From the NCBI GenBank assembly GCA_016464825.1, contig JAEKNQ010000019.1:124001-188000 (forward strand): DNA of 64,000 nt, written 5' to 3'. Below the pieces are notes generated by a model. That model saw only the letters and a list, made by a program, of their open reading frames with translations, made no database searches and had not been told where the DNA came from. Of this stretch, positions 32,000 through 33,543 are shown piece after piece. Each line of letters begins with the position of its first letter. Position 1 is the stretch's first letter. A program made the position numbers and the translations under genes. Source of the stretch: Candidatus Dormiibacter inghamiae (GTDB lineage: Bacteria > Chloroflexota > Dormibacteria > Dormibacterales > Dormibacteraceae).

Positions 32000-32023
32000 C
32001 TTCGCGTAACCCCCCGGCGTATC
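31996..32023 (+). promoter_or_regulatory. Candidate ECF-type promoter of the sigma/Rieske operon
   Basis: GTAAC at 31996-32000 (spanning the antiporter stop) and CGTATC at 32018-32023 are 17 bases apart, similar in form to ECF -35 'AAC' and -10 'CGT' elements, and lie just before the sigma gene. A second GCGTAAC repeats at 32004-32010. Autoregulation by this sigma factor is a guess from position. Confidence 0.3.
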
Positions 32024-32049: not shown

Positions 32050-32616
32050 TTGCCGGACCCCGCCCAATCCGAAATCCTGTCCCGGGCGCCAGCAGCTATG
32101 AAACCGGCTGAACAGCCCGGTCAGATCTATGAGCTGCCGGCTGTGCCGGATCCGACCGAGCAGGCGCTTGAGGACCTCGATCTCATTTACGCCTATCTGT
32201 ACGCTCGGGTCGGCAACCGGCCTGACGCGGAGGACCTGACCCAGCAGGTGGCGCTGAAGGCCATCCCCCGTCTCAAGCCGGATGCCGCTCCGGCGGCAGT
32301 TCGGGCCTACCTCTTCGCCACGGCTCGCACGGTCCTCGCCAGGCACTGGTCTCGCCGCCTGGGAGTGCCGGAGGAGCAGCTGCTCGACGATCTCTCGCAG
32401 ACGGAAGGCGGCGGGGAAGAGCCGGAGCCGATCGAGCGGGTCCGCCGCATCCTCGACGCCCTGCCGGCCAACTACCGGCGTCTTCTGGAGTTGCGCTTCC
32501 TGCGCGGCTACTCGTTGAAAGAGGTAGCCCGAGAGACCAGCACCACCCCGGGCGCGGCGAAGATCATGCAGTGGCGGGCGCTGCGCGCCGCGGCGAAGGT
32601 GAGCGATGCCCGATAG
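32050..32616 (+). CDS. ECF-type RNA polymerase sigma factor
   Basis: 188 residues from TTG 32050; ATG 32098 is an alternative. Region 2 is LDLIYAYLYARVGNRPDAEDLTQQVALKAI with the DAEDLTQ core, region 4 is DALPANYRRLLELRFLRGY followed by SLKEVARETSTTPGAAKIMQWRALRAA. No region 3, so an ECF (group IV) factor. The 3' end overlaps the next gene by 11 bases, and that gene encodes a membrane protein with a Rieske domain, in the place where an anti-sigma factor normally sits. Confidence 0.88.
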   Translation: MPDPAQSEILSRAPAAMKPAEQPGQIYELPAVPDPTEQALEDLDLIYAYLYARVGNRPDAEDLTQQVALKAIPRLKPDAAPAAVRAYLFATARTVLARHWSRRLGVPEEQLLDDLSQTEGGGEEPEPIERVRRILDALPANYRRLLELRFLRGYSLKEVARETSTTPGAAKIMQWRALRAAAKVSDAR

Positions 32617-33301
32617 CGAAGAACAGAGGCTGGCCGACCGGCTGGAAGCACTGGTCCGCCAGCTCCTCGCCGGCCGCAGCCCTCACCTGCACGTGAGCGA
32701 CGCCTCGGAGCGTCGGGCCCTCATGGTGGCGGCTCGGCTGGCGGGTGCGCGCGAGGCGTTTCCCCGACCGACGCCCGAATTCAAGCGCCGCCTGGCCGCC
32801 GAGCTGGGGCACTCGGCGCCGGTGGCGGAACGCGGACTCTCACGCCGCGCGGCCCTGGTCGCAGGCGCCGGCGTGGCGCTCGGCGCGTTGGGCGGAGCCA
32901 GCGCCCAGCGTTTGGCCGACTTGCTGCCCAAGGCTGCGCCAGGGCCGACCAAGACGGCGGCTGAGCGAGCGATCCTCGAACCGCAGCCCGACACCGCACG
33001 CTGGTACGACACGGGCATCCGCTTCGCTGAAATGTCGGAGAGCCAACCGCACCGGGTGACGGCGGGTGCGATCAGTGCCTTTGTCATCCGTCAGGGCGAG
33101 CAACTGACGGCGATGTCCTCTTACTGCACGCACATGCCCTGTGAGCTCGTGCCCACCGGTTCTCAACTCCGCTGTCCCTGTCACAATCTCAGCTTTTCGC
33201 TGCAAGGCCAGTCGCTGGCGGACGGTTACGACCTGCCCTCGCTACCGCTGGTCAGGGTGAGGGTGAAGAACGGTCGAGTCGAGGTGATGGGGACCGCATG
33301 A
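32606..33301 (+). CDS. Membrane-anchored Rieske [2Fe-2S] protein, candidate redox-sensing anti-sigma factor
   Basis: 231 residues. Residues 1-75 are a helical cytosolic region (RRALMVAARLAGAREAFPRPTPEFKRRLAAEL) of the kind seen at the N-terminus of membrane anti-sigma factors, without a zinc motif. SRRAALVAGAGVALGALGGA (79-98) is a Tat-like twin-Arg plus single membrane segment. Residues 130-230 form a Rieske domain with Cys174-x-His176-x-x-Cys179 and Cys190-x-Cys192-His193: all four ligands and both disulfide cysteines of the bc1 type. No cytochrome b is nearby. The start overlaps the sigma gene; the anti-sigma role is inferred. Confidence 0.75.
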   Translation: MPDSEEQRLADRLEALVRQLLAGRSPHLHVSDASERRALMVAARLAGAREAFPRPTPEFKRRLAAELGHSAPVAERGLSRRAALVAGAGVALGALGGASAQRLADLLPKAAPGPTKTAAERAILEPQPDTARWYDTGIRFAEMSESQPHRVTAGAISAFVIRQGEQLTAMSSYCTHMPCELVPTGSQLRCPCHNLSFSLQGQSLADGYDLPSLPLVRVRVKNGRVEVMGTA

Positions 33302-33543
33302 CGAACCTGCAGCGGCGTCGCCTGCATGCGCTGGACGGCTGCCTCAACCTCCTGGAGGACGCGCTGGAGAGGGGTGTGCACCGTATCAACGGCCCGGTGG
33401 GTCGCGAGCTCAAGCTCCGACTGGGGATGGCCGGGCTCATCCCCGACCACCGGCTGGAGGGGCGGCTGACGGAGCGAGTCCTGGACGACGTCTTTCGGCT
33501 CCAGGGCCAGCTGATCGGCGAGGACGACGAGCTGGCCGGCTAG
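33298..33543 (+). CDS. Small helical protein in the sigma/Rieske operon
   Basis: 81 residues, starting on the ATGA overlap with the Rieske gene. Charged and helical (RRLHALDGCLNLLEDALERG, LTERVLDDVFRLQGQLIGE), no membrane segment, one Cys. I do not recognise the family. The coupling suggests it acts with the sigma/Rieske pair, for instance as a cytosolic adaptor, but nothing in the sequence proves this. metK begins 47 bases later. Confidence 0.6.
   Translation: MTNLQRRRLHALDGCLNLLEDALERGVHRINGPVGRELKLRLGMAGLIPDHRLEGRLTERVLDDVFRLQGQLIGEDDELAG

Follow-up and report, generated by a model that had tools for sequence, protein, structure and literature searches.

Membrane-bound anti-sigma factors of class I follow a common plan, in which the gene lies beside that of the sigma factor and the product consists of a cytoplasmic helical N-terminus, one membrane helix and an extracytoplasmic part. 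In the stretch of Candidatus Dormiibacter inghamiae DNA analyzed here (64,000 nucleotides, hereafter the window; GenBank assembly GCA_016464825.1, contig JAEKNQ010000019.1, positions 124,001 to 188,000 of the forward strand), the gene for an extracytoplasmic function (ECF) sigma factor is overlapped by a gene for a membrane Rieske protein, which we propose to be its anti-sigma factor. RseA, RskA and RsiW are membrane-bound class I factors of ECF sigmas (PMC7406223), and the Rieske protein shares with them sigma adjacency, a helical N-terminus, one membrane helix and an outer part; unlike them, however, its N-terminus matches no anti-sigma family searched, and its outer part is a Rieske domain of the twin-arginine translocation (Tat) type.

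Anti-sigma factors with a [2Fe-2S] cluster have been reported as well, namely RsmA, a HATPase_C family protein of Streptomyces paired with sigma M, and the mycobacterial RshA, paired with SigH, which has an HX3CX2C motif with cysteine ligands (PMC3427169). The protein of the window would resemble both in placing an iron-sulphur cluster, here predicted, in a proposed anti-sigma factor, but its cluster would be of the Rieske type (two Cys and two His ligands) and is predicted to lie outside the membrane. [2Fe-2S] anti-sigma factors have thus been reported before, of other families and with other ligands; no account of a Rieske-type anti-sigma system was found in the literature searched, though the main ECF re-classification or its supplement may mention one.

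The Rieske proteins of bc1 and b6f complexes are exported through Tat as folded domains and anchored outside the membrane. The PetC-type structures 8hn2, 5cxm and 7r0w are the best PDB relatives of the window protein by profile, with 8hn2 and 5cxm also ranking high by fold, and b6f/bc1 PetC has in common with it the Rieske domain, the disulphide pair and the twin-arginine anchor. Unlike PetC, the window protein has a sigma-linked N-terminal domain, a sigma neighbour and no cytochrome b neighbour.

Overall, the locus probably encodes an ECF sigma factor together with a membrane-bound anti-sigma factor, for which the extracytoplasmic Rieske cluster would serve as the sensor. It is highly probable that the Rieske protein acts as an anti-sigma factor, and reasonably likely that the cluster is the sensing element. 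Comparison of the loci establishes, at the level of sequence, a conserved gene pair, an N-terminal domain that goes with sigma, fusions in three genomes and a two-box element, and these are described below.

Organization and conservation of the sigma-Rieske pair

Three overlapping, co-oriented genes are found on the forward strand of the window. An earlier sequence-only reading had described the sigma gene as overlapped by the Rieske gene and followed by a third coupled gene of 81 residues, and both coordinates and frames bear this out. The sigma gene (32050..32616; 188 amino acids, aa) starts with TTG at 32050, where the sister species (G001) has ATG, and overlaps by 11 bases the gene for the Rieske protein (32606..33301; 231 aa), which is proposed as the anti-sigma factor on its Pfam match, conservation, fold model and adjacency and which overlaps the third gene (33298..33543) by 4 bases. 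Both Sigma70_r2 (PF04542) and Sigma70_r4 (PF08281) are above the Pfam cut-off in the sigma protein, which also scores 54.7 bits against the NCBIfam model TIGR02937 (sigma70-ECF; cut-off 42.9); having regions 2 and 4 only, it is an ECF sigma factor. The BldN and ShbA models are among its best NCBIfam matches, the BldN-family model having the best E-value, yet both are far below their own cut-offs.

The pairing follows the N-terminal domain of the Rieske protein. Searches with this Rieske family, from which both groups compared here were drawn, left 205 matches after de-duplication by the last 100 matched residues, with Rieske matches ending before model position 195 dropped; 128 have the N-terminal domain and 77, several of them fragments, do not. 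A related sigma gene lies just upstream in 125 of the 128, as compared to 7 of the 77, which is far beyond chance and excludes an accidental neighbourhood of the two genes; the adjacency first noted at this one locus extends in this way to its homologues. The three exceptions are a locus with a run of N just upstream of the Rieske gene (L086), a second, shortened copy in Solihabitans fulvus (L187) and an acidobacterial locus with a cytochrome b-like gene (L205). As for the seven rows with a short N-terminus and a sigma gene, L068 and L182 seem to reflect a broken gene or assembly, and in L310, L311 and L313-L315 the sigma gene is 364-399 bases upstream. By gene arrangement, the sigma gene and the gene combining the N-terminal domain with the Rieske domain form a conserved, co-oriented pair of the predicted ECF sigma/anti-sigma kind.

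Cytochrome b shows the opposite distribution. A cytochrome b-like reading frame, searched for with the cytochrome b frame of the window's own genome, was found in none of the 125 sigma-Rieske loci, as compared to 41 of 70 Rieske loci without such a sigma (mean locus length 5.7 kb and 5.9 kb, respectively), the latter including L086, L187, L205 and the probable fragments L050, L081, L085 and L089. The own genome has six Rieske matches, and its single Cytochrom_B_N_2 match lies on another contig beside a different Rieske gene (C16); this match (G000:C16:48198-48581, L346) contains one stop, from either a split gene or an assembly error. An ordinary bc1/b6f subunit was rejected on these grounds, and the earlier remark that no cytochrome b partner is near the window's pair can be widened to all 125 loci. 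Homologues that usually sit beside cytochrome genes and lack a sigma neighbour would have refuted the sequence-only reading; for proteins with this N-terminus the opposite is seen, and that reading is supported.

The sigma-Rieske pair is a conserved system in Chloroflexota and Actinomycetota. A match at E <= 1e-5 was obtained in 72 of 101 genomes searched, the window's own included, and sigma lies upstream in all 30 of the best loci (L007-L036, again including the window's own), although it is split over two frames in L029. The own genome holds a second sigma-Rieske pair on contig C34. A scan of named genomes with 11 query sequences, evaluated for the best 80 loci, gave 24 with sigma upstream, all of which carry the N-terminal domain on the Rieske protein except L182, where both genes are cut. 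Ten of the 24 belong to Actinomycetota and the remainder to Chloroflexi metagenome-assembled genomes (MAGs); the actinomycetotal pairs come from Pseudonocardiales and other MAGs, from an Acidimicrobiaceae MAG and from the named Pseudonocardia eucalypti DSM 45351, Actinokineospora enzanensis DSM 44649, Kribbella pratensis and Solihabitans fulvus. The system is widespread: an 11-sequence profile matched 79 of 400 Chloroflexota genomes at E <= 1e-25, not all of which are confirmed as pairs.

Domain structure of the Rieske protein

Three parts can be distinguished in the 231-aa protein, all encoded on the forward strand. An N-terminal three-helix domain (residues 1-76; 32606..32833) is proposed to be cytoplasmic and to bind sigma, based on the fold model, its co-occurrence with sigma and the fusions; it is followed by a twin-arginine (R80R81) signal-anchor or membrane helix (residues 78-106; 32837..32923), recognized by conservation and weak Pfam matches, and by a Rieske domain (residues 128-231; 32987..33298), which is predicted to be extracytoplasmic and is supported by PF00355, fold and conservation. 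The AlphaFold model, built with 49 sequences, has helices at residues 5-21, 33-49 and 57-69 and a confident Rieske domain; helices 80-95 and 97-106, which start at the twin arginine and coincide with the expected membrane segment, are of low confidence. The helical N-terminus, twin arginine and single membrane segment described from the letters alone agree with this model and with the conservation of R80 and R81.

The Rieske match to PF00355 scores 39.7 bits (cut-off 20.3), and the fold of the domain matches 8hn2 with a Z of 12.5 and a root-mean-square deviation of 3.2 over 102 aligned positions. By profile the best solved relatives of the domain are b6f-type proteins, and in its fold it resembles both Rieske proteins of the b6f type and Rieske ferredoxins. 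The bc1-type ligands C174 (33125-33127), H176 (33131-33133), C190 (33173-33175) and H193 (33182-33184), as well as the disulphide pair C179 (33140-33142) and C192 (33179-33181), were confirmed in the window protein as the sequence-only reading had listed them. By its ligands, disulphide cysteines and fold the domain is of the bc1/b6f type, and binding of a cluster is predicted.

Across the 125 sigma-coupled proteins C174, C179, C190, C192, H193, W133 and R80 are invariant, and R81 is kept in 120. The ligands and the disulphide pair are also conserved in a smaller alignment of 72 rows, which represent 71 distinct genes since L003 and L096 are the same gene, and the twin arginine is present in all of these rows. 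Weak Pfam matches to this region were seen among 49 members, to UCR_Fe-S_N in 10 (best E 0.0077) and to TAT_signal in 6 (best E 0.018). A twin arginine followed by a hydrophobic helix is the pattern of a Tat substrate, and transport by this route is predicted.

Association of the N-terminal domain with sigma

In three genomes the N-terminal domain is found at the C-terminus of a sigma-like protein, which ends soon after the domain; these fusion genes (G002, L058/L257; G029, L089; G023, L065/L168/L260) lie just upstream of the sigma-Rieske operon. Such a fusion protein is possibly a ready-made sigma/anti-sigma complex in one chain. In G047 (L078/L263) the domain forms a separate 78-residue reading frame between the sigma and Rieske genes. 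When distances were correlated over 120 pairs, the N-terminus followed sigma with r 0.908 and the Rieske domain followed sigma with r 0.874, the latter being 0.845 (standard deviation 0.013) at equal column number; the correlation of the N-terminus with its own Rieske domain (r 0.843) was below that with sigma. The fusions, together with the closer tracking of sigma by the N-terminus, favour sigma binding by residues 1-76.

Direct coupling analysis (DCA) of the 120 pairs, with an effective number of sequences (Neff) of 80, placed the N-terminus in 9 of the top 20 inter-protein pairs, where about 6.3 are expected, an excess that shrinks to near expectation in the top 50. A structure search with the whole-protein model is uninformative about this domain, as the 50 matches listed all cover the Rieske domain only.

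A two-box element upstream of the operon

Before the sigma gene, on the forward strand at 32006..32021, lies a GTAAC-N7-[CG]GTA element (one match in the window, 0.06 expected) which is the probable promoter or operator of the operon. The ECF factor sigma D of C. glutamicum has GTAAC as its -35 box, 17-20 bases from the -10, and the spacing given for -35/-10 pairs is 16-20 (PMC11588781). The element of the window is like that of sigma D in its GTAAC box and unlike it in having the second box 7 bases away.

The spacing was examined in 81 sequences of at most 600 bases that precede sigma, taken from 80 loci, many of them closely related. The boxes are exactly 7 apart in 65 of the 81, each of the other spacings from 4 to 21 being seen in at most 3 (spacing 16 in 3, spacing 17 in 2), and the element at spacing 7 occurs on the other strand in none of the 81. 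If N6 is accepted besides N7, 100 of 125 loci have the element in the 700 bp before sigma, although for some loci the upstream sequence is short; of the 10 actinomycetotal loci, 4 have it there (Pseudonocardia eucalypti, Kribbella, MAG L179 and Solihabitans). The flanks of 85 diverse sites, selected by the pattern, show only weak preferences, for T or C before and C after GTAAC and for T after GTA, with no conspicuous third box.

In seven genes (L109, L134, L162, L163, L174, L181 and L250) an ATG follows the first G of the element at a distance of 24-28 bases. As this leaves little room for a ribosome site, a transcript start near +25 is likely, which in turn places GTAAC near -25 and GTA near -12 to -13; for the operon, a start at about 32031 is predicted from those target genes whose ATG is at +24 to +28. 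The alternative in which GTAAC is a normal -35 box with its partner 16-17 bases downstream was rejected owing to the rarity of that spacing and to the ATGs only 24-28 bases off. Recognition of the GTAAC-N7-SGTA element by this sigma is rather likely. In many relatives (L021, L026, L032, L033, L038) the element and sigma are separated by a gene whose product is exported and CHRD-like by eye, and in some this gene looks shortened or decayed when compared with L011, L013 and L020.

Candidate target genes

The element, the cupredoxin and lipoprotein genes and the spread into Actinomycetota were all absent from the sequence-only reading and are added here. The own genome has seven exact sites. Each of the two sigma-Rieske operons is preceded by one, a third is located between the paralogous Rieske gene and a cupredoxin lipoprotein gene, a fourth lies before another cupredoxin gene (with the same element in the sister species), and the other three lead into no such gene. 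Nine genomes with the pair contain 79 sites, of which the 63 with a retrieved locus were inspected; sigma follows 9 of them and an exported protein 16, making 25 in all, and 38 lead into neither. The 16 comprise Secreted-repeat (7), cupredoxin (3), CHRD (2) and TIGR03118-like (2) proteins and another secreted family (2), where the TIGR03118-like label and that of the last family are provisional. These five classes were picked after the products had been seen, and as 5 of the 16 are themselves query proteins (L100, L102, L125, L140 and L159), 11 are independent.

As controls, none of 23 sites at spacing 10 in five of the same genomes leads into the classes, and none of 6 sites does so in three genomes without a detected pair (G046, G050 and G054). 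A further genome, G045, initially served as a negative control and was reassigned once its result was known, as it carries sigma and the N-terminal domain on a short stretch at the end of a contig; 3 of its 7 sites lead into the classes, a Secreted-repeat and a cupredoxin gene among them.

Cupredoxin, Secreted-repeat or CHRD genes occur in 48 of the 125 sigma-Rieske loci, as compared to 6 of the 70 others, and two of these six (L086 and L089) are probably sigma-coupled. A cupredoxin gene with the element follows the pair in 3 of 10 actinomycetotal loci (Actinokineospora, Solihabitans and MAG L179), and in L171, also from Actinomycetota, such a gene lies nearby on the other strand. Pfam recognized Copper-bind in four sample proteins, Lipoprotein_15 in one and CHRD, just above the cut-off, in one.

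Other genes, named by eye, lie near the pair or the element. Similar nucleotidyltransferase-like proteins, of a non-exported kind, are preceded by the element in three genomes (L114, L119 and L121), and a haloperoxidase-like gene follows it at L167 3283. In L065 (4192-7194), genes for another Rieske protein of the Tat type, for a Secreted-repeat-like lipoprotein and for a haloperoxidase-like protein come after the pair; this second Rieske gene is also present in L058 and L089.

The third gene and the operon flanks

The third gene of the window (33298..33543, forward strand) encodes a predicted helical protein of 81 aa with no Pfam or NCBIfam match. It was rightly described as such beforehand, but it is kept only in the window's closest clade: it lies downstream in all 30 nearest loci (L007-L036, the window's own included), 6 other loci of this family have it too, and no match was found in the remaining surveyed loci, including the second pairs L003, L058 and L065. 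The protein may act as a further modulator. The operon is flanked by a Na+/H+ exchanger gene upstream and metK downstream.

Proposed mechanism and alternatives

In the mechanism we propose, the cytoplasmic N-terminal helices would bind and silence sigma, presumably by contact with its regions 2 and 4, while the folded Rieske domain would be exported through Tat and anchored outside the membrane. The signal would be a change in the cluster, either through its oxidation state or through its failure or loss under iron shortage or oxidative attack, and this change may pass through the single membrane helix or expose the protein to proteolysis, thereby freeing sigma. Freed sigma would then transcribe its own operon and genes for exported carriers, cupredoxins among them. 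Cupredoxins are natural electron acceptors of chains of the Rieske/cytochrome type, and we infer that the cupredoxin of these loci meets this Rieske domain; a cupredoxin product and a Rieske sensor would close a feedback loop, and absence of the cluster, be it through iron shortage, oxidative damage or failed export, would explain a switch to copper proteins. A more far-reaching and doubtful version is a transmembrane redox relay, in which the Rieske cluster would trade electrons with the exported chain, the sigma factor would use the compact GTAAC-N7-SGTA promoter, and freed sigma would direct the synthesis of blue-copper proteins and other exported members of that chain. If this relay were true, ECF systems would gain a new type of sensor as well as a new promoter geometry.

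Several observations weigh against an anti-sigma factor with a Rieske sensor and a sigma that reads the element. Position 176, which is His in the window protein and in 116 of the 125 sigma-coupled proteins, is Asp in nine (L012, L015, L034, L037, L072, L077, L080, L303 and L304, from at least two families), so that a standard Rieske cluster is not always kept. Searching the N-terminus against anti-sigma families, as had been suggested with the sequence-only reading, gave no such family among the Pfam and NCBIfam matches listed for 49 and 66 members and no anti-sigma match in PDB sequences, and assignment to a known anti-sigma family was set aside on this account. Modelled alone, the domain is of low confidence (predicted local distance difference test, pLDDT, 68.5; predicted template modelling score, pTM, 0.42), and a Foldseek search with this weak model returned nothing at E <= 0.001. 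Among the top 50 DCA pairs the N-terminus accounts for 17, where about 15.8 are expected, with the membrane part equally enriched; the signal looks phylogeny-dominated and the alignment is shallow. The element is missing before sigma in 25 of the 125 loci and in 6 of the 10 from Actinomycetota, its spacing of 7 departs from the canonical ECF promoter with boxes about 16-20 apart, and the number of sites per genome is not above that of a reversed-pattern control, so a single site proves nothing.

The Rieske protein might instead be an electron-transfer effector which is merely co-transcribed with and controlled by sigma, with sigma being under the control of its own transcription or of some further factor. 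Exported proteins of a redox type are commonly encoded in the loci (48/125), and this, like a second Rieske gene downstream in some operons (L058 and L065), would suit such a role; however, it leaves unexplained why the N-terminal domain occurs mostly with sigma, why it is fused to sigma-like proteins and why it tracks sigma better than the Rieske domain does, and with no cytochrome b gene in any of the 125 loci we regard it as improbable. A different question is what a Rieske domain on an anti-sigma factor would report. Rather than redox state, it could be iron-sulphur assembly or Tat export: a protein lacking its cluster would not be exported and would be degraded, and the freed sigma would turn on copper carriers. 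The Tat-type twin arginine kept together with all of the Rieske cysteines is consistent with this, as are the cupredoxins among the element genes, which fit an iron-to-copper swap; yet Secreted-repeat and CHRD lipoproteins are not known to have a copper role, and the system is retained in the His176-to-Asp variants. This explanation is a tentative one.

Those nine variants, which belong to more than one lineage, would be easier to understand if the Rieske fold of the anti-sigma factor were a protein- or ligand-binding module with a purely structural cluster, but the remaining three ligands do not vary, nor do the two disulphide cysteines, and such a module seems unlikely. The element, too, can be read in another way, as the site of a separate DNA-binding regulator acting on the sigma operon and the exported-protein genes. 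Its spacing of 7, against the 16-20 of -35/-10 pairs (PMC11588781), and the lack of a third box in the 85 diverse sites would be in keeping with an operator of this kind. The element precedes sigma operons in two phyla, however, and its first box is the -35 box given for sigma D (PMC11588781), leaving the separate regulator the less likely reading. A sigma factor that reads both boxes is the interpretation we favour. It also agrees with the second box, as GTA fits the -10 of ECF factors.

Implications

Recognition of this element would pose the puzzle of how an ECF factor copes with a spacer of only 7 bases between the boxes, and the system suggests a role for the poorly understood Secreted-repeat and CHRD lipoproteins. 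The presence of the pair in named strains (Actinokineospora enzanensis, Kribbella pratensis and Pseudonocardia eucalypti) makes these proposals directly testable. Many soil bacteria carry a sigma factor paired with a membrane Rieske protein. If an outer Rieske sensor is indeed at work in them, the cell could monitor its outer electron chain for redox or iron-sulphur state and respond in a single step, and may thus switch on exported copper and other proteins by sensing electron flow at its surface or damage to iron-sulphur clusters.

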